Program-made: the position numbers and the translations under genes
Notes under the pieces: model-generated
What the model saw: only the letters and a program-made list of their open reading frames with translations
Told to the model about the DNA's origin: nothing
Database searches by the model: none
Assembly: GCA_008802785.1 (NCBI GenBank)
Contig: VUYT01000004.1
Span: 682,001-746,000 of the forward strand
Length of the DNA: 64,000 nucleotides
From: Symmetrospora coprosmae
Taxonomy: Eukaryota > Basidiomycota > Cystobasidiomycetes > Symmetrosporaceae
Reading direction: 5' to 3'
Shown here: in pieces, positions 16,930 to 40,935 of the stretch
How the letters are laid out: every line of letters begins with the position of its first letter
Numbering within the stretch: the first letter of the stretch is position 1

Positions 16930-19514
16930 CTAATACGAGTCCCACCTCTGTGAAAGGCGTGGAGCGGTGTCAGCGAGGAAACTGTCACGGCCGGAACCAA
17001 CCGCACTCACGTTCGAACTCAGCGCAATGAGGCGATTGAAGAGCTCGTCGCGGCGCGGCAGTGCGGTGATCGTGGTGGTCTTGCCGTCCCTTGTGACGAC
17101 CGAGAGGGCATCAATGACCTCCATCCCGAGCACGCCTCCGACAATGAGCTTGGACTTCCAGCCGAGGCCTCCCAGCTTCTTCAGCTCGGCAATGTCATCG
17201 ATCTGAATCGAGAATTTAGGGTCGAATTCAGGCGTGCCAGGTAGCTTGTTTTCGCGAACCCAAGAGATTAGCGGTGTCGTGGCGCTCGTGCTCTGCAGAA
17301 TGCGCCCGCCATGATTCGCACATTAGTAAGAGCCATCTCTCGAGTGCTCGTGTCACCTACAATGATTAGCCAGCCCTTCTTGCCATCAGAACGGCACTTG
17401 TACATGGACGGGCCATCAATGTATTGCCTCCGTCTGAGAACACCTTGCCGTTGCTTCGACTTGCTGCTCCCGATCTGCGCTTTGACGCGGTCGGCACCGA
17501 GTACGGCGGTGACGCCAGTCTTGGCCGTCCCCTTGACAAAGTTCACGAAGCGATGCTTCTTCTTTGGCTTGCCCTCGTCGTCGAGCCCATCGTCCGGTTC
17601 CACATCTGTTGTCGAGTCCGCATAGTACTCGTGGTCGTGCGAAAGGTCACGCTCGGCCGTATCTGCGTTGACAGGTGGCAGATTGTCCTCGAGTTCCGGA
17701 GTCACTGCTCGCTCGGGAGGAGCTTCCGTATACTTGGGCGGAGGTGGCAATGGGGTGTCGTGCTCTTCTCCGATACGGAGCAGAGTCAAGGCTAGCTGAC
17801 TATTCGACGGCACTCCAGCGAGCAGTGTGCTAGGTGACGCGGACATCGACACATGCAAATCAGCGCTGACGTACCGCCAGCACATCAAGCAGCAGGGCGA
17901 CTCACTTCTGGACCTGGAGGAAGTCCATCCAGTCTGGATACTTGGTGACGAACCAGCGGAAAGCTTTGCTCATATAGGGCTGGCTGAAGAACAGGACGCC
18001 GGTCAAGAGGCTCGCGCCACGAGCGAGATACTGCGTCTTGACGAAGATGGTGATGAGTGCAATGGGCAGAAGGACAGCGGCCAGTCTCAAGCGAGGCAGA
18101 TGCTCCGGGTACGGATGAGTGGGTGACAGGGCGCTGCAAAGACCGCATGTAATGCTTTGATCAGCTTAGGCAACTTTCAGGATTCGCATCCAATCTGCAC
18201 ATACTTGGCCAGCCTTTCGTAGTTGTCGCAGAAATCCTCGATGCCCCGCATAGCCGGCCTCATTCCTTTCCAGATCGAGTCAATGATGGGGTCTTTCGCC
18301 TTATTGTGCTCCGCTGTCGCCAGTTCGCCTCCAGCCTTTGCCTTGCCCTCCGCTGTGGACATGGTCATGTCTACAGGGTCGGGCAGGACTTTGTCTAATG
18401 GCGTCTTCTTGGCAGCCTGATCTCGATCTGACTCGTGTGACTTGCCAATGGCAGAGGCCATGGCCACGGTTGCAATGCCATTGACAAAGTTGCTGGCCTC
18501 GTTTTCGACGGCTTCGCCCTTGTGCGCTTCAGCGGCACCCGTCAAGCTTGATCCGTTATCGTGGAAGCCAGGATGGTAGTCAGAGCATGCGCAAGTGGGC
18601 AGTGACGAGACATGCACAGCTCACCTATCCTTCGAGCCGACCTTGTTGCCAGCTTTTGGCTTTTGCAGACCACCGGAGCTCGCAGAAATCATCGAGAGCG
18701 GGGCAGGCGGGAAGACAAAGTGCCGTGAAGGCGGATAGACGATCAGGGTGATGAGGAGGCCGACGAGGAGAAGACCGACTTGTGCAGGGATCCAGAAGGC
18801 GAAGTACGTGACACACCAGACGATGGTGCGATTGTACTCGTTCCAAGAGCGGACGCGCTGAACGTGCTTGATGAAACCAGCAGAGCCTACGACGAAATTG
18901 ATGTACAATCTCTCGATGTTGCTGCGGAGCCTGTCTGGGCTGAACTCCTCGTCGGCCGCGTTGACAAGATCCATCTCCCGCTCCGGGTAGAGACCGCGCC
19001 TGCTGCCATCCTTGCAGGCTTTGACGTGGTACATCTGCTTGTCGAACCTCCTGACAATCTTGAACAGTTCGTCGTTGGCCAATCCCTCGACAACCTCTTT
19101 GGGAATCAGTGCCGGGTCGGACCAGACGTTGTGGGTATGCGGGTCGATGGCGTCGTAGTCGGCGGTGTCATGCTGCTTGACCAGCCCTCCCGTGCTGACG
19201 TCCTGTGGCCTGGCCAATCCAGCTGTCTCCTCCGCATTCTCGTGCAGTTCGTGCTCCGAACGCGTCCTTGTCGGTAGCCCTAGCTCGTTCGCGACGGCCG
19301 TGTGCGACACGTCGCCCGTCCCTTCAATGTGCGGCGCAGCAGCCGTGTCCTTCATTGCCTGAGTGGCAGGCATGTGCCCTGCAGATGCTGTCTGGCTCAC
19401 CACAACAGGTGCAGGCACAGCCGCAGAGGGTGCTGGCGGTGCTCGACTCGCAGCATCCGCTTCTGGCAGAGTGAGCTCGCCAGCTGCGACACTGCGCGGC
19501 GTGTGCGTGCTCAT
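16930..19514 (-). CDS. DUF3292-like membrane protein, copy 1
   Basis: About seven exons encode a protein of roughly 750 residues matching the fungal DUF3292 pattern; function unknown. N-terminal half: variable disordered region, then LARPQDVSTGGLVKQHD, VWSDP, and NIERLYINFVVGSAGFIKHV. Hydrophobic spans follow at IVWCVTYFAFWIPAQVGLLL and, two exons later, LAAVLLPIALITIFVKTQYL with LLTGVLFFSQPYM. The C-terminal half has NSQLALTLLRIGEE, a proline-rich linker, a basic region (GKPKKKHRFVNFVKG) and a PH/GRAM-like segment (YIDGPSMYKCRSDGKKGWLI, then GLGWKSKLIVGG). The last exon gives RWDSY. Start 19514 aligns with the start of the neighbouring copy. Inference: membrane-tethered lipid-binding protein. 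First exon 19514-18625; other borders approximate. Confidence 0.8.
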
Positions 19515-19895: not shown

Positions 19896-22488
19896 CTAGC
19901 AGGACTCCCACCGCTGCGACAGAGCAGGGTCAGCGTTGAAACGTCCTGGCGCGGATGATCAGGTGTCCTAGACCCACGTTGTGGCTCAAAGCGAGCAAGC
20001 GATTGAAGAGGGCGTCCCTGCGCGGAAGCGCAGTAAAGGTCGTCTTTTTTCCGTCAACCGTGGTGACCTCAACGGCGTCGGCCAGGTCAATATCCAGCAG
20101 ATCCGAGAGCACAAGCTTGGACTTCCAGCCTAGACCACTGAGCTTCTTCATCTGGATAATGTCGTCGACCTGAATTGAGATCTCGGGGTCAAAGCGCTTG
20201 GTGTCTGGCAGATGATTCAGGCGGACCCAAGAGATGCAAGGTGTTGTTGCGCTCGTGCTCTGAGGAATGGTACACGAAGGAGACAAACAGTGTCATCAGC
20301 TTACAGATGCACGCTGTACGACTGATGTAGCTCGCAAGACTCACAATGAGCAGCCAGCCCTTCTTGCCATTGTAGCGACAGTTATAGACAGACGGCCCAT
20401 CGACAAAGTGGCTCTTGTCGAGGGCTCCCTGACGCTCCTTTGACATTGGACTGCCCGTCTTTCCCTTGAGCCGGTCAGCGCTCAACACAGTGATCGCGCT
20501 GGACCGCGCTGAGCCTTTGACAAATCTGACAAAGCGGTCAAGCTTCTTCTTGGTCTTCCCACCGTGATGGCGGCTATTGTCGTCCTCGTCGTCTGCCGCT
20601 TTGTCAGGAAAGTTGTCTGACAGATCTCCAATAGCCGTATCTGGGTTGACATTTGGCAGGTCGTCCTCAATCTCGGGTGTCACAGGCCGCTCGTGCTCTT
20701 CGTCGGGCGCGTAGCTGGGTGGTGGTGGGAGAGGCGTGTTCTCCATTTCGCCGATACGGAGCAGCGTCAAGGCGAGCTGGTTGTTGGATGGTATGCCTAC
20801 CAGGAGGGTGCTGTGGTGAGAGGTAGAGGACCTCGTGAGCGTTCTGTGCCTTCAGCGGACATGCGAATGACTCACTTCTGCAGCTTGATGAGCTCTCGCC
20901 AGTTCGGGTACGTCCGAATCGCGTATTGGACGGCCCTAGACATGTATGGCTGGCTGAAGAACAGAACGCCTGCCAGGAACGAAGCGCCACGAGCGACGTA
21001 TTCCGCCTTGACGAAGGTAGTTGTGAGAATGATAGGGACGATGAGTGCAGCTAGCCTGCACCGGTGGTAGTGCTCTGGGTACGGATGGACCGGCGAGAGT
21101 GCGCTGTGTGATTGAGCAAGCACGTCAGCTCATCTGGAGCAGTCCGACTGGCCTACTTGACCATGCAACGCACAAAGCCACTCTCTCATAATTGTCGCAG
21201 AACTCCTCGATGGCTCGCATGGCAGGTCGCGTGCTCAGCCAAAGGGCATCCGTCACGGGATCTTTCGCCTTTGTGTGCTCGGGCGTGTCCTTGTCGCCGG
21301 TAGTCTTTTCCTTGCCTTCCGCTATTCATCGAGACCGAGGTCAGCCCGCTCGTACCCATCGAGTACACCGCCTAGATCGAGTGGGACGAACCAGCAGCTG
21401 CTTCCTTGACAGCATTGGCGATGTCGTTTACGTACTGTCTCGCCTCATTCTCAACGGCCTCGCCTTTGTGTGCCTCTCCACCTCCAGCTAGACTGGTGTG
21501 GGGAGTGTTTCGGAGAAAGAGGAGGGTGGAAACCGTTCGTCATTCGCTCTTGGTGCTCGTGTTGCCTCTGTCTCCTTCCGTAGCTCGGATGAAGTCACCT
21601 GTCTTTCGAGCCAACCGTGTCGCCAGCCCGTGGCTTCTGCAGGCCTCCAGATACAACTGACACCATGGACAGAGGTGCAGGAGGGAAGATGAACTGGCGA
21701 GACGGAGGGTAGACCATGAGGACGATAAGAACACCGCCTAAGAGGAGGCCGACCTGATGCGCGAGCCAGAAGGCGAAGTAGATGGTGCACCAGACGACGG
21801 TCCTGTTGTACTCGTTCCACGATCGCACACGCTGGATGTGCTTCGCCGCGCCTGCAGCTCCAAGGACGAAAGTCAGGTAGAGGCGTTCTAGGTTGCTCCT
21901 CAATCTGTCAGAGCTGAACTCCTCATCAGAAGAATTGACGAGATCCAGCTCCTCCTCCGCAAATTGTCCCCGCTTGCTGCCGTCTCGAAAAGCTCTGACC
22001 GAGTATAGCTGCTTGTCCATCCGGCGCACGATCTCGTACAGTTCATCGTTGTCCTCCAGACCTTCGTAGATGTTTGTCGGTACTGCAGCGGGGTCGGACC
22101 AAGTGTTGTGCGTGTCAGGGTCTAGGGCACTAACAGAGGCAGTGTCTTGCTGCTTGACCAGTCCTCCCGTGCTGACGTCCTGAGGACGGGCAGGTCCCAC
22201 AATCCCCTCCGGCGGGACCTCCTGCAGGTCCTCATGCTGAGCACGCGTCACGGTCGGGAGACCAAGCTCGTTTGCGACGGTCGTACTCGAGACGTCTCCT
22301 GTTCCATCGATATAGGGTGACGCCGAGGCGGCCTTGACGGCATCGGTCGCAGACGTGTGCGTGTCTGCTGGGCCTGCGAGATGCTCAGCCACGAAAATAG
22401 GGGTAGCTGACTGTCCTGCAGCGTGTCCTGCTTCGGGCAAGACGAGTTCGCCAGAGGCGACAGCCTGAGGCGTGTTGTGAGAAGTCAT
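19896..22488 (-). CDS. DUF3292-like membrane protein, copy 2
   Basis: Paralog of the gene immediately downstream on the same strand, with the same exon order. Start 22488 (MTSHNTPQAVASGELVLPE) aligns with MSTHTPRSVAAGELTLPE of copy 1. Shared blocks include ARPQDVSTGGLVKQ, VRSWNEYNRT, VYPPSR.F.FPPAPLSM, AHKGEAVENEA, GVLFFSQPYMS, NQLALTLLRIGE, VDGPSVYNCRYNGKKGWLLI and GLGWKSKLVL. The last short exon reads RWESC before the stop, matching RWDSY of copy 1, which supports splicing out the apparent read-through tail. The linker exon between the two membrane regions is shorter than in copy 1. The N-terminal 100 residues and the basic region have diverged most. Same inferred role: membrane-anchored protein with a PH/GRAM-like C-terminal part. 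Confidence 0.8.
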
Positions 22489-22705: not shown

Positions 22706-23597
22706 CTATGCCTCGCCGCCGGCTTTGCCCTTGCGCTTCTTGCTACCGACTTGGCCAACGCCAGGCTTGCTCCCGAGCAAGCGCGCCAGCTTGTCGGAGT
22801 CGACGCCTTCGCCTATGATCTTTTCAAGACGTTCGTAGTGCTCGTCCTTCTGCGACAGGTAGCAATGCCTGGCTTGGAGTGTCCTAACTTCCTGGAGCAG
22901 CTTCCTGTACCTGCAGCGCGTCTGTAGCATTCAGCTCGGAGGAAGCAACTACCGTAAGATTCTCAGTGCGCCTCACCCTGTAAGCTCTTGCTGCTCTAGC
23001 TGCTGTGAGCGTGCGTTAGGCGTAGGCCATTCGGAAGGAATCTCGTCCAGCCAGTCGTCTCTGTTTCGCAAGAGGCAAGACGCGTCGGTCCGGCGTGTTG
23101 TGAGGTCCAACCCTCGCTGAAGCGGAACTGCTCCCTCACATGTCCACCCTGACGGTCCCTTCGTCACTGTTTACCTGCAGCGTATGTAGACCTGCTAGAT
23201 GCTCCTCCTTCAGGTAGTCTACCTGCTCGACGACTGCCTGCAGCGAGGCCTCATTGAACCTCTTCTTGCGCCTGTCGACGAGCTCCGAGCTGGCAACAGG
23301 TGCAGCATCAGCTCCGGCTTCGGTCAGCCTTTCGCCCCCTGAAGCTGTCAGTACTGACTTCAGCGCTTTCACAGCCTTGTCGAGCGTCTTTTGCGCTGGC
23401 GGCTCCACCTCTGTCCCCTCCTGGTCTTCGAAGATGTACTCGTCGCGCCCGAGCAGCTTCAGCGGCTGGTCCAGCGTTTCGATCTGCTCCTTGAGGAAGG
23501 TCAGGACGTCTACGGTAGCAGTCTCGCCATCGTCGCTACGCTGTTGATGCCGTGCCTTGCCCTTGTCCTTGCCCTTGCCCTTGCCCTTGCCTGGCAT
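22706..23597 (-). CDS. candidate kinetochore protein Fta4/CENP-U-like
   Basis: Three exons on the minus strand. A Lys/Gly-rich start (MPGKGKGKGKDKGKARHQ) precedes FLKEQIETLDQPLKL, a helix with LDKAVKALKSVL, then RFNEASLQAVVEQVDYLKEEH. After an intron (donor at 23174, acceptor near 23070) comes DWLDEIPSEWP, and the last exon gives GYRKLLQEVRTLQARHCYL and HYERLEKIIGE. This order (an 'LSQPL' helix, a 'QA..HVAEQID.LY' helix, a W..LP..WP element and a C-terminal coiled coil with YR.L..L) recalls the Fta4 family of the Sim4/COMA inner kinetochore complex. I rate this as pattern recognition, not proof. The gene is divergent from SCS7, separated by about 510 bp. Exon 1-2 join unresolved; exon 2-3 join in frame. 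Confidence 0.55.
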
Positions 23598-24108: not shown

Positions 24109-25349
24109 ATGACCGTCTCAACAACAACCAAGCGAGGACCCTCGCAGCGCAGGATCTACACGGCCGCTGACGTCGCAAAGCACAACACCAAGAAGTCATG
24201 CTGGCTCGTGCGCAACAACACTGTGTACGACTGTACCGAGTTCGTGGCAGACCACCCGGGAGGAGACGATCTCATCCTGGATTGGGCAGGCAAGGACATC
24301 GACGGAGTGATGGAGGACCCGGCAGAGCACACGCACTCGGAGTCGGCATACGACCTGCTCACCGAGTACGCTATCGGCGTGCTCATGACGGGCGAGGCCA
24401 TCGTCGACGACAATGTCGAGATCGACGAGAACTTTGAGCCAGAGGCCACCGACGAACAGCGCGACTTCTCCAAGAACGCCTTCCTCGACCTCAGCCGACC
24501 GCTCATCATGCAGGTCTGGTATAGCAACTGGAGCAAGGACTACTACCTCCAGCAGGTTCACCAGCCGCGTCACCTGCCCCAGCCAGCGAGGCTGTTTGGG
24601 CCATGGTACTTGGAGATGTTCACGAGGACACAGTGGTACATCGTCCCTCTCATCTGGGGACCCATTGCGCTTGGGTTCCTCTACCGCTCCGTAGTTGGAC
24701 AACTCGCAGAGGGCGTCAGCACAACCACCACCACAGCAGCTACATTTGCGTGCTTTGCCTTTGGCGTCTTCTTCTGGACGTTCATCGAGTACTTCATGCA
24801 CCGCTTCCTCTTCCACGTCGACGATTATCTCCCGGACCACCAGTTCGCCCTCCTCCTCCACTTTCTGCTGCACGGCATCCACCACTACCTACCGATGGAC
24901 AGGCTGCGCCTCGTCATGCCGCCCATCCTCTTCGCCGCCCTCTCCGGTCCCTTCCTCAAGCTGGCGCATGCTCTCTTCCCGACAAACTACGCGAACGGCA
25001 TCATCGCAGGGAGCTACACAATGTACATTGTGTACGACTGCATGCACTACGTGAGTCGCACTGCCGGCCGCTCTACATACCTCCCAGCGAGGTTCGGCGC
25101 TGACTTCGCCCATACCCCTCGTATCCACTCTGACACAGGCCATGCACCACAGCAAGATGCCACAGTACATGAAGCAGATGAAGGTGTACCACCTGCAGCA
25201 CCACTGGAAGGTGAGCGTCCATGCCAGAGCCGGCTACCGGACTGTGTTGCTATGAGCGATTCTGACATCTGGAACATCGACAGAACTACGAGCTTGGCTA
25301 CGGCGTCACGTCCAAGTTCTGGGACGTCATCATGGGCACGACCTTGTAG
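24109..25349 (+). CDS. SCS7: sphingolipid fatty-acid 2-hydroxylase
   Basis: ER di-iron enzyme adding the 2-OH group to very-long-chain fatty acids of ceramides. Three exons (24109-25050, 25139-25210, 25284-25349) join in frame to 359 residues. The N-terminal cytochrome b5 domain has the heme motif HPGG at residues 49-52 and a second histidine near 74-76. The hydroxylase domain supplies the histidine clusters EYFMHRFLFHVDDYLPDHQ, HFLLHGIHHYLPMD, MHHSK and YHLQHHW, with YDCMHY between. The C-terminal exon reads NYELGYGVTSKFWDVIMGTTL. Membrane spans flank the first cluster. All expected metal ligands are present, so it looks functional. Its last exon plus intron tail is duplicated immediately downstream. 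Confidence 0.95.
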
Positions 25350-25466
25350 CTGCCTCACGTGCTTCTGACATCTGGAACATCGACAGAACTACGAGCTTGG
25401 CCACGGCGTCACGTCCAAGTCCTGGGACGTCCTCATGGGCACGACCTTGTAGCTGCCTCGCGTGCT
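25261..25466 (+). repeat. 103-bp tandem duplication containing the SCS7 last exon
   Basis: Unit 1 (25261-25363) and unit 2 (25364-25466) are adjacent direct repeats with four differences. Each holds 23 bases of intron tail with the CAG acceptor, the whole 66-nt last exon including its stop, and 14 bases after it. In unit 2 the exon frame is still open and ends in the same stop. Three differences fall in codons and all change the residue (Tyr to His, Phe to Ser, Ile to Leu). The fourth is in the 3' flank. Confidence 0.95.
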
Positions 25467-25727
25467 CGCGGGCGGCTGCTCTAGAGGTGTACCCGATCCT
25501 CCTCCACTCTCTTTGCTTTTCTCCCGGTGTTGTATCTCCTGTCGCGCTCGCTTCTTTGTCTAGCAATTCACGCTTTTACCTGCGATATGTTCAGAGCTTT
25601 GTGGGCGATGCGCAGAGCTTCATTGCTCCCTGTTCCGTTCCTCTTGCCCAACCTGTGCAGCTCAACATCGTCGGTCTGCAAGTGCTCTCTTCCCAACCAA
25701 CATCTTGGGCAGTTTGCGACCTGGTCA

Positions 25728-27543
25728 ATGTCGCGGAGCGGCTCGAGCAAGCCAGCGGGATCATCCGCATCCACTTCCGCCTCTCTGTCGAACGTCGTTT
25801 CCTCTCTTGTGCGCGCCCAGCATGGCCTGACTGCCCGCGAAGGCCTGGAGAGTGAGACAGACCTGGACCGCCATGTCGCCGACCTGCTGCTCAAGGACGC
25901 CAAAGCGCGAGAGGAGCGCGCAGCGCGCGAGAAGGCGTCGTACTGGCGACTGAGCGACGATGAAGGGTGGGCCGCTCGTCTGCTGTGGTTAGCGTGTGCG
26001 GGCAAGCCAGCTGACACGCACCTACCTTCCGGGAACCTCACAACGACGAAGGGAGCAGCAGTATCAGTCAAAGACAAACAAGCGCTTCCTCAAGAGCATG
26101 CTCCGCAATCTTGAGGACCACAACAAGCCTCTGATCCGCCCAGAGTCGCGCAAGGAGCAACTCGACGCCATCCGTGCTCGAGACCGCGCCGAGCGAGAAG
26201 CACGACGTGCTGGCAAGGAGGCCGCCGGCGCCAGTCAGGCAGAAGCCCAGAGAAGCTCGAGTCGCAGTGGGAGCGCCGATGTCGCCCGCGTCAGCAGCAG
26301 CAGAGACGCCTCGGAGCCTGTGCGCGCCACCGAGGGCAGCTCATCACGGTCGCGAGTGGCGCCTTCCGGCTTCGCTGCAAAGGCTCTAGCGCAAAGTATC
26401 GGTGGGCAGGCACGAGGCAGCGGTTTGCGATCCAACGGCAGTTCGTCGAGAGCTGCGGAAGCGGCTGTACCCACCTCAGACTATCGCCACGACAAAGGCC
26501 GTTCTCGCTCTCGAGACCGCAGTCGCAGTGGCGACAACCATTACACAGACAAGGGCAAAGGAAAGGAGAGGGCAGCAGATAGGGAAGAGGCGGCTGAGCC
26601 TTCGCGTAGCCGCTCGAAGCGATACCGAGGTGACTCTGCAGACCTGCGGGAGGAGTCTCCGCCCCGGACGTCGAGGCGCGATGACAAGGCAAGATCGACC
26701 AGCGATCGACACTCTCGTACATCTCGAGAAATCGCACCGCAGGATAGGCCGACTAGCGAGGACAGGGAGGGCAGAGATGACTTCCGTGGACGCCGTTGGT
26801 CACGTTCACCGCCGAGGTCTACGTCTGAGGTGGGAGGTTCTGCGCGGCATCGCCGCGGCCGCGATGAAGATCGCAAAAGGGACACGCGGGACGTCAACAA
26901 ACATGTTCAGTCACAGCACAGCCCAATCCCACCTTCTGACGATCACAGCAAGCGGCGCGAGCGAAGGAGGCGAAGGTCGCCATCCACGGCTCAATCCGAC
27001 TACGGTTCGTCCGACACGTTTATCGACACCACTGAAGGTGCGGCTATCGCAAACGGAGGCGGGTCCAAGATGGACAAGTACTTCTCTTCGATGTACGACC
27101 CGGCGCTAGATGTATCCGTGACCGACCTAACGGACCCGCGAACGGGCCTCATCGCGGAGGGGAACTTTGAAGGCTGGGACGCGATGCTGAGCGTGCTCAA
27201 GCAGCGCAAGGAGGATAAGGTGTCTGGCGTCAGTAAAGCACAGGAGGAGGAGCGGGAGCGGCAGATTCGCAAGCTCGAGCGAAGGCATCGGAGGGAGGAG
27301 CGAGAGCTACGGCGCGCCGAGCGCCGAGAGAAGAAGCGGCGGAAGAAGCGGAGACGTGGGAGCGATTCCGAGAGCAGAAGCGACAGTGACACCAGCTCGA
27401 GCAGCCGAGGACAACACCGTCATTCTAGCGGCCGGTCCAGATCCAAGCCGAAGGTGGTCGGAACTGTCAATGTTGACGGGTTCGAGTATGTCAGACAGGG
27501 AGGAGAGCGGGCTTGGGATATGGGCAAAGACAAGATGCTGTAG
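25728..27543 (+). CDS. Arg/Ser-rich (SR-like) nuclear protein, unassigned
   Basis: Two exons (25728-25966, 26052-27543) join in frame to 576 residues. The conserved-looking N-terminus has an acidic/basic helix (VADLLLKDAKAREERAAREK, then YWRLSDDEG), and after the intron TNKRFLKSMLRNLEDHNKPL. The middle is rich in RS, SR and RD dipeptides with many SP sites. A second ordered segment (KMDKYFSSMYDPALDV, GNFEGWDAMLSVLKQRKEDK) precedes a long charged coiled coil of Glu/Arg and a poly-basic run (REKKRRKKRRRG). Composition suggests a nuclear pre-mRNA-processing or chromatin factor. I do not recognise the exact family. The start at 25728 was chosen because its frame joins the second exon with a consistent phase. 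Confidence 0.7.
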
Positions 27544-37376: not shown

Positions 37377-37910
37377 TTCGTGGTTTGGTCAGGAGGGCTT
37401 GTGCTGAAGGCGAGATGAATGGATGCAAGGGGAGTGTGGAGAACGTGACAGACGCTCCAGGGACAGGGGAGGAGGGGAGTCAGGAGGTAGTGATGGATCG
37501 AGGGATCAGTACAATTCCAGCAGTGTGCATTGTGAGACACTCACCCGCGTGAGCTTGTCGACTGTGTAAGATGAGGATCTGAAAGTGCGGAGAGAGCGAA
37601 TGGAAGAAGGAGAATGGAAGGGAAGGGAAAGGGAGGGATGGGATGGGAGGAAGGGAAGGGAAGGGAAGGGAAGGAAGGAGGGAAGGAGGGAGAAGGAGCA
37701 GAGCACGGTGTGTCCAGGGCCGAGGTCACCGTGCACGCACCTCTCCGACCCATTCTCCGTCTACCAAACAAGCTCGACTGGACCCCCCTTTTCTAGACGC
37801 GTCGAGACGCGTCGTGCCAGACAGATCCTTCACAACAGCTGGCGAGGCAAGACCGCGTTGGTAGTTTCTTCTGTAGTACATAGTGCGAAAGCAAGCCATT
37901 CCGTGTGCGC
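37377..37910. other. intergenic region with purine tract
   Basis: About 530 bases between the start of the BAH-like gene and the 3' end of the first DMT transporter, both on the minus strand. The promoter of the former lies here. The main feature is a strongly G/A-rich tract, listed separately. Confidence 0.5.
37598..37700. repeat. G/A-rich microsatellite-like tract
   Basis: About 100 bases almost purely purine on the plus strand, built from imperfect GGGAA and GGAAG units (longest clean run near 37652-37675). It lies roughly 220-320 bp upstream of a minus-strand gene start, so it is a pyrimidine tract on that gene's coding strand. Such mirror-like purine tracts can form triplex DNA and are length-variable. 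Confidence 0.8.
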
Positions 37911-39257
37911 TCAAGCTGAATACTCTTGCCCTTTCCTTCCTTGGCCGGCGACGGGCTTCTCCATTTCGTGCTCCTCCTCTTCCTGTCCCACCGAGCTGTA
38001 TGCGGCTCCATCGTAGGATGTCCCTCGCTCAGCGTCGCTAGGTGCCACGTGGGGCGCTGGCGGCTGTGCCTCCTTGCTGAGGGTGATGGCGATGGCGCTC
38101 GCGACGATGATGATGCATCCGACGCCGCTCCATATGGACATAATGTCACCGAAGGCGAGCCAGGAGAGGAAGACCGTGAGAGGAAGCTGCACGTAGAGAA
38201 GCAGGGTGGTCCTCCCGAGTTTTGAAAGCTCCACGGCCTTGTTCATGACGAAGGTGGCCAAGAAGCCAGTGGAGGATAGCTGATGCCAGGATGCAACATG
38301 ATGTCGATCAGTGAGCGCGTTACCTGAAGTGTCACCAAACATGGAAACGAGAACACTTACCCCGATGAGGTAGAGGGGGACCGGCAGGTCAAACTTTCGC
38401 CAATCTGGCCGTTGCTCCTCATCGTACCACATGAGAACCGCCATTAGTGGCGTGGTGACGATGCCAAAGTACGAGACGAAGAAGAGTGCATTCACTCGAC
38501 CCCTGCAGTGCCGGAGTATGACAAAGACAACTGCGCCGAGGAGAGTTCCTATCCCAGCTTGAAGAAATCCGAGCGCCTGGGTAGCAGCTTCCGTGTCGGG
38601 TGGGTCGAGTTGACTGCCGCCGAACAGAAGAGGCGGTCGAATGACAAAGAGCACGCCGATGATCGATACGCCGCCGCAGATGCCCTCCGTTGGCGTGTAA
38701 GGCTCGCCGATGAGGCAAGCAGCCAGGACGCTGACTGCGCAGAGCAAAGAGCAGCAGGTCAGCCGGGGTTTCCTGCGCTACATCGCAAGGTAAACACGAC
38801 GTACCGATGATAGGGCATGTGAACCAGATGCTGATTGCATCGCCCAGCTGCAGGACCCGCAGACTCGTGTAGAAGAAGAAAACGTTGACTGCTCCGAGAG
38901 CGCCTCGAAGAAGCAGCCAGGATCGCATATCAGGCGGACCCAGGATGGAATGCTCGACGCCCGTATGACGCATGTACAGGCAGGCGAGGACAGTGGTGAC
39001 AGACATCCGGCAGAAGATGATGAAGGCCTGTTGAGGACGGAGGCGGCAGAGACCAATTAGTCAACCATTGACCATAGCATGACCAGCGATCCGCACAATT
39101 GCATTCGAATACACACCACCGGAACGCCGTGCACATCAGACAGCAGTTTCGCAAAAGTGTCCATAGTGGTGAAGCAGCATCCGCCGAGCGCCATCAGCAC
39201 AGCTGCCAGGTACTGCGCTGGAAGGGCTGCACGCCCGCGTTCGAGTAGCTCATTCAT
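37911..39257 (-). CDS. DMT/EamA-family transporter, copy 1
   Basis: Ten-helix drug/metabolite-superfamily carrier, related to SLC35G/EamA proteins, substrate unknown. About four exons. Start 39257 gives MNELLERGRAALPAQYLAA, then helix 1 (VLMALGGCCFTTMDTFAKLL). The next exon has AFIIFCRMSVTTVLACLYMR, the family motif RSWLLLRGALGAVNVFFFYT, and LQLGDAISIWFTCPIIG. After a splice comes VLAACLIGEPYTPTEGICGG and, in the second EamA repeat, LGFLQAGIGTLLGAVVFVIL. The last exon has LSKLGRTTLLLYVQLPLTVF, SWLAFGDIMSIWSGVGCIII and a cytosolic acidic tail (SSVGQEEEEHEMEKP). The 'G..A..L...EP' element after helix 4 is typical. Tandem paralog of the gene upstream on the same strand. Confidence 0.85.
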
Positions 39258-39610: not shown

Positions 39611-40935
39611 TCAGCCGCGACTCCCAGGCTTCTCCATTTCATGCTCCTCCTGCTCCACCGGTCGATATGCAGCCTCCGCATCCCCATCAATCCTCCTCGT
39701 CTCGTCTCGGCCACACGTCGGCTCCTCTGTCTTGGTCTCCTTGCTGTGGACAATTGCGATAGCGCTCGCAACAATGAGAGCGCAGCCTACCCCAGCGGAG
39801 AGTGACATGACGTCGCCGAACACGATCCAGGACAGAAAGACCACCAGAGGGAGCGTGACATATAGCAGCAGGGTGACCCTGCCGGCTTTCGCAAGCTCGA
39901 GAGCGAGGTTCTGAATGTAGGTTGCCAGGAAGGCTGTGGTGGAGAGCTGAGCGCGCCCGCGAGCAGAATCAGGTCAGCTGATCTGTTCCGAGCAAAGTCT
40001 TGATAGATAGTGGACTCACCCCAACAAGATAGAAACACGCTGCTATGTCGATCTTGCTGCCGTCTAGCCTCTGGCCCTCGTCATATACCATGAAAACGAG
40101 CATGACTGGCGCGCCGACCATGCCAGAATACGAGACGAAGAAAAGGGGGTTCGTCCGTCCTCTCAGGAAGCGGAGCAAGACGAAGATGAGCGCTGCGAGG
40201 AAGGTAGCAATGCCAACTTGTATAAAGCCGAGTGCCCGATCGACTGGTACGGTGTCGGGGTCGCCAACGTCGCTCGCCCCGAAGAGGAAGCATGGCTGGG
40301 TCACCAGTAGCACGCCGACAACCGAGATTCCACCGCAGATACCTTTCAGGAGGGTGTAGGGCTCGCGAAGGAGGATGGCAGCTAAGACGCTCACTGCGGG
40401 AGCGGAGGCCAAGCTGTCAGTCGTGAACCCGGGAGTCCTCCTTCGAAAGCAGCACACCGAGGATGGGACAAGAGAAATACACGCTGAGCATTTCCCCCAG
40501 CTGCAAAGTGTTCAAGCTCGAGTAGAGGGCAAAGATGGCGACAGAACCGAGTAGGCCCCGCACGACCAGCCAAGCGCGCATGCCAGGAGGACCCAGGACT
40601 GGACTGTCGACTCCAGTGTGTCGCATGCACAGAATGGACAGAGCAGCAGTGACGATCATTCTGACCAATACGATGAAAGCCTGATGAGCGTGGCGGCGTG
40701 GCGGAGGAGGATACGGCATTGGAAGACCGTGCTGTTAGGAATCGCTAGAGCCGTCTTCCAGATTGAAGGCGTGAAGAGAAGTCAGTCCGCTCACCACCTG
40801 TATGCCTTTGACGTCGCCCAGCAGCTTGGCGAACATGTCCATGACAGCGAAGCAACACGAGCCCATCTTGAAGAGTGCGGCGCCGAGGTGTTCATCTGGG
40901 ATGTTGCTTCGCGCCCGCGTGAGGAAGCCTGTCAT
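39611..40935 (-). CDS. DMT/EamA-family transporter, copy 2
   Basis: Paralog of the gene downstream, same strand and same exon layout. Start 40935 gives MTGFLTRARSNIPDEHLGAA, then KMGSCCFAVMDMFAKLLGDV. Later blocks are AFIVLVRMIVTAALSILCMR, RAWLVVRGLLGSVAIFALYS, LQLGEMLSVYFSCPILG, VLAAILLREPYTLLKGICGG, LGFIQVGIATFLAALIFVLL, and LAKAGRVTLLLYVTLPLVVF with SWIVFGDVMSLSAGVGCALI. The tail again ends in an acidic EEHEMEKP motif shared with copy 1. Conserved tail sequence between otherwise diverged paralogs suggests a trafficking or degradation signal (inference). Upstream lies a long intergenic stretch. Confidence 0.83.

Follow-up and report, generated by a model that had tools for sequence, protein, structure and literature searches.

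The last coding exon of a predicted SCS7-type fatty acid 2-hydroxylase gene in this fungus is present twice, in two adjacent 103-bp units that each carry the end of the preceding intron, its splice acceptor, the complete exon and a stop codon. The repeat lies within the 64-kb stretch of DNA analysed here over its full length (the window). We think it probable that it arose by recent tandem duplication, with the first copy (unit 1) serving as the working exon and the second (unit 2) drifting as part of the 3′ UTR. This reading is favored because unit 2 departs from the family at two constrained positions, because its changes resemble unconstrained mutation and because its use would require a 176-nt intron.

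Results

The gene spans positions 24109–25349 on the plus strand, with the unit 1 copy as its last exon, and encodes a 359-aa product in three coding exons, all features being on that strand. Coding exon 1 (24109–25050, 314 codons) is an open frame with the Cyt-b5 domain and the start of the FA_hydroxylase domain. Intron 1 (25051–25138, 88 nt, GTGAGT...ACAG) was placed by the gapless join of frames matching yeast Scs7, and coding exon 2 (25139–25210, 24 codons) by its frame and Scs7 match. When joined to the unit 1 exon, intron 2 (25211–25283, 73 nt, GTGAGC...ACAG) falls within a cluster of likely intron lengths at 50–89 nt, and the presumed working exon 3 (25284–25349) encodes NYELGYGVTSKFWDVIMGTTL followed by a stop, in agreement with the Scs7 C-terminus NYQLGFGVTSWFWDEVFGT and with the family columns described below. 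Retention of intron 2 would lead to a stop after VSVHARAGYRTVLL, and retention of intron 1 would cause exon 3 to be read out of frame. From a G+C content of 0.59–0.60, the genome size and the intron lengths, the source may be a basidiomycete yeast, although this is a guess.

Yeast Scs7 (PDB 4zr0) matches the protein with an E value of 1.2e-95, and the likeness covers the Cyt-b5 and hydroxylase domains, with 53% identity across the aligned hydroxylase part, and extends to the C-terminal motif present in unit 1. The Cyt-b5 domain (PF00173, 74.9 bits, residues 18–93) and the hydroxylase domain (PF04116, 50.9 bits, residues 216–357 in the unit 1 version) both score above their curated cut-offs and stand in the order expected of SCS7/FA2H proteins, N-terminal cytochrome b5 and then fatty acid hydroxylase. 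An NCBIfam search of the protein returned no family. On domain content and the Scs7 match, the gene is predicted to encode an SCS7-type fatty acid 2-hydroxylase.

Tandem Repeats Finder (TRF) reports the duplication as a single array at 25260–25466 with a period of 103 bp, 2.0 copies and a 96% match. Because TRF starts the array at 25260, one base earlier than unit 1, at most 1 bp is common at the joint. By TRF and direct comparison, unit 1 (25261–25363) comprises 23 nt of intron 2 tail, the 66-nt exon and 14 nt past the stop, and unit 2 (25364–25466) is a gapless head-to-tail copy sharing 99 of its 103 bases. Each intron tail includes a branch-point-like CTGAC and a CAG acceptor, and the 23-nt tail of unit 2 is letter-identical to that of unit 1, with the right phase. 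A whole exon has been copied in tandem within the gene together with its acceptor, as in other tandem exon duplications. The exon 3 copy in unit 2 (25387–25452, presumed unused) encodes NYELGHGVTSKSWDVLMGTTL followed by a stop. Donor 25211 is in phase with both 25284–25349 and 25387–25452, the product is 359 aa long either way and both C-terminal versions end in MGTTL. The two exon copies are one base apart in frame, so that read-through of the first stop would fail to continue in the second copy.

Four positions separate the units: 25299 T/25402 C, 25318 T/25421 C, 25329 A/25432 C and 25357 A/25460 G. The first three change Y to H, F to S and I to L (unit 1 to unit 2) and the fourth lies beyond the stop; at all four sites (only four in number) unit 1 has A or T and unit 2 has G or C. 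The original prediction of two adjacent 103-bp units, each with intron tail, acceptor, last exon and stop, is thus borne out by TRF and direct comparison. Its description of unit 2 as an open exon in the right phase from exon 2 agrees with the 359-aa translation obtained either way, and its count of four differences, with all three coding ones altering residues, matches the comparison.

The repeat exceeds chance (self-BLAST, E value 1.6e-42) and is the sole TRF array with a period of at least 50 bp, and the sole adjacent self-match of at least 40 bp by self-BLAST, in 264 kb made up of the window and 200 kb of the same contig beyond it. The window was picked for holding the repeat, so the unbiased count is that of the 200 kb, in which there were zero arrays and zero adjacent self-matches at these thresholds. 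The closest thing to the SCS7 event within the 200 kb surveyed is a two-copy tandem duplication of 32 bp with a 96% match (L013, positions 1967–2031; G000:C44:61967–62031).

Several other repeats were seen in the same DNA. Two diverged copies at 17032–19328 and 19999–22311, about 2.97 kb apart and with stretches that are 63% and 69% identical, are probably a tandem gene duplication; a minus-strand open reading frame lies at 21595–22488. A further diverged pair, at 38070–39035 and 39737–40688, is 1.67 kb apart and 64% identical over 981 aligned positions. Outside the window, G000:C44:68805–70498 and 71311–72989 (L013 and L014) match each other in three stretches, 67–80% identical and about 2.5 kb apart, probably another tandem gene duplication. 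TRF also found a CCTTGC hexamer array of 6.2 copies on the plus strand upstream of SCS7 (23555–23591) and a purine-rich GAAGG/GGAAGGGAG array with several periods (37600–37698).

Across the genome (20.05 Mb in 77 contigs), a single match to the SCS7 locus was found. A protein search of the genome gave at least eight matches, at least four of them at the SCS7 locus (exon 1, exon 2 and both copies of exon 3) and at least four elsewhere, covering only query residues 11–94, the cytochrome b5 part. No second hydroxylase domain was matched at an E value of 0.001 or better in the 20.05 Mb. That another hydroxylase gene donated sequence by gene conversion was considered and is unsupported, since no other hydroxylase was matched at that threshold. 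An assembly or sequencing artefact, with misjoined reads or two alleles placed side by side, is highly improbable: the units carry four differences, two of which hit constrained residues, a pattern not expected of functional alleles at a single-copy locus, and the locus has a single genome match; these points are an argument and not read-level evidence.

To see which copy is family-like, both were compared with related proteins. Yeast Scs7 has F at each of the first two changed columns, in the motifs GFGVTS and FWD, and unit 2 departs from it at both. Scans of genomes for relatives gave one, which was bacterial. Family rows came from a search with a two-row alignment (the SCS7-like protein and Scs7) against 282 genomes of the phylum to which this bacterial relative belongs, which gave matches in 157 of the 282; its best 30 loci and three loci from other searches made up the 33 bacterial rows compared, 32 of them distinct because L027 and L028 are one gene. 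Among these 33 rows, the first changed column holds F (22), Y (10) or M (1), the second L (18), F (10), V (4) or A (1) and the third V (31), L (1) or C (1). The unit 2 residues H and S are absent from their columns in the 33 bacterial rows, although choosing rows by similarity to the unit 1 query and Scs7 favors F and Y. The expected placement of two changes at conserved positions holds in the Scs7 alignment and the 33 family rows; the third difference (I>L) is uninformative on this comparison. Putting unit 2 in place of unit 1 lowers the Pfam hydroxylase score from 50.9 to 44.6 bits, a loss of 6.3, which still leaves it above the cut-off of 31. On the simplest view, unit 2 acquired at least two of the changes, the first and the second.

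The pattern of change was set against a null model of random single-base changes from unit 1 over 20 codons, with transition weights from 1 to 4. Under this model the probability that three of three changes are nonsynonymous without a stop is 0.35–0.40, and two or more of the three give family-unseen residues or stops with a probability of 0.63–0.66. The three coding changes, two of them at constrained positions, fit unconstrained mutation, although so few give a weak indication about selection on the unit 2 protein. The open frame of unit 2 is likewise weak evidence for function, given that a copy diverged by 4% is likely to keep its frame anyway.

Use of unit 2 would require a 176-nt intron (25211–25386), as implied by donor 25211 and the unit 2 acceptor. 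We estimated likely intron lengths from pairs of donor and branch point/acceptor motifs on both strands of the 264 kb; these are motifs and not transcripts. With the first motif pattern there is a large excess at 50–89 nt (347 pairs against an expected 177, z 12.8) and no clear excess at 90–139 nt (194 against 221), 140–189 nt (242 against 221, z 1.4), 150–200 nt (249 against 226, z 1.5), 190–289 nt (456 against 443) or 290–399 nt (485 against 487). Three further motif choices gave z values of 16.9, 13.1 and 6.7 at 50–89 nt and 0.3, 0.2 and −0.3 at 150–200 nt. A 176-nt intron would therefore be unusual here, though possible: the 180–189-nt bin of the first histogram stands above background (63 seen, about 44 expected), which makes rare long introns possible, and one further motif choice reached z 2.0 at 190–289 nt. 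RNA folding of 25205–25395 is not more stable than that of shuffled sequences (z 0.89; of 200 shuffles, 162 are at least as stable), which does not point to a compacting structure. A survey of 42 eukaryotes inferred that fungi recognize splice sites mainly across the intron and that cassette exons are rare in them (PMC2397502).

These results bear on whether unit 2 is a nascent alternative last exon, with some transcripts joining donor 25211 to 25387 and altering three C-terminal residues. Unit 2 keeps the phase, an open frame to its stop and splice signals identical to those of unit 1, and a duplicated terminal exon is used alternatively in oyster AOX (PMC5589949). Against this stand an intron length beyond the 50–89-nt cluster with an identical acceptor nearer to the donor, two substitutions at positions constrained in Scs7 and the 33 rows, and the ordinary folding of the region. 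Both versions also end in MGTTL, which gives no reason to expect an altered terminal signal. Such an exon is unlikely on balance, and low-level use of unit 2 is possible.

A role for unit 2 other than as an exon, at the DNA or RNA level, altering the SCS7 3′ UTR or the spacing to the next gene, is extremely improbable. Unit 2 does lie past the SCS7 stop and ahead of a plus-strand reading frame at 25527–26114, but there was no Rfam match at the gathering score in the 64-kb window and no other pointer to a signal. A tRNA search of the window found none, and an rRNA search gave no match.

Discussion

Recent duplication with a relic second copy would account for the locus as follows. One recent 103-bp tandem duplication, with at most 1 bp common at the joint, would have occurred in a single-copy SCS7-like gene and taken in the tail of intron 2, the whole last exon and the start of the 3′ UTR. 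The spliceosome would pick the nearer acceptor, removing the usual 73-nt intron and using unit 1, and unit 2, past the first stop, would be untranslated 3′ UTR and free to mutate. The duplication itself, the frames, the matching splice signals, the lack of another copy and the family-atypical residues of unit 2 are observed; the acceptor choice, the transcription of unit 2 and its lack of constraint are the parts that we infer. Several observations pull against this account: unit 2 keeps an open frame and a stop, with a CTGAC and an acceptor identical to those of unit 1, the four differences are too few for testing constraint, the intron lengths come from motif-pair statistics with a raised 180–189-nt bin and a z of 2.0 at 190–289 nt, and the family rows were selected by similarity to unit 1 and Scs7. 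The original prediction had left the choice between a decaying duplicate and a nascent alternative last exon; constrained residues and intron length favor the former, and phase and splice signals leave the latter possible, with the open frame as its sole positive evidence.

SCS7 hydroxylase is metal-dependent, as is AOX. In the oyster Crassostrea virginica, terminal exon 10 of AOX is tandemly duplicated and both copies are expressed (PMC5589949). On that description the likeness lies in a single-copy oxidase/hydroxylase-type gene with a tandemly duplicated terminal coding exon, one copy being family-like and the other carrying novel residues. However, the oyster copies are described there as old and strongly diverged with the second copy family-like, whereas here they are 96% identical and the first is family-like; exon use is known for the oyster, and the SCS7 copies are known from DNA alone. 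Tandemly duplicated terminal exons have also been described in human, fly and worm genes (PMC9013439, PMC9741552). As described there, a terminal coding exon is copied in place and the copies are potentially used singly, as in SCS7, but the SCS7 case is from a fungus with short introns and its exon use is putative. A literature search, with subscription journals mostly outside its reach, met no fungal duplicated terminal exon of this sort among the papers listed, which is no proof of absence. By structure the SCS7 gene belongs with the known duplicated terminal exons; alternative expression of its second copy is unproven.

The duplication is real but ordinary, and offers a clean, young case of a terminal exon duplicated with everything needed for splicing. 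A silent unit 2 would show that, of two identical acceptors, the closer one prevails and the duplicate is left to drift; if unused and transcribed, unit 2 forms part of the 3′ UTR. Should it be expressed, the locus tests whether a short-intron fungus can adopt an alternative last exon. Its use would change two constrained positions that are aromatic or hydrophobic, and weakening of the enzyme would then be likelier than a new role. That a mutually exclusive last exon is just emerging in this fungus, with one donor joined to either copy and two hydroxylases that differ in three C-terminal residues and possibly in ceramide hydroxylation, is decidedly unlikely.
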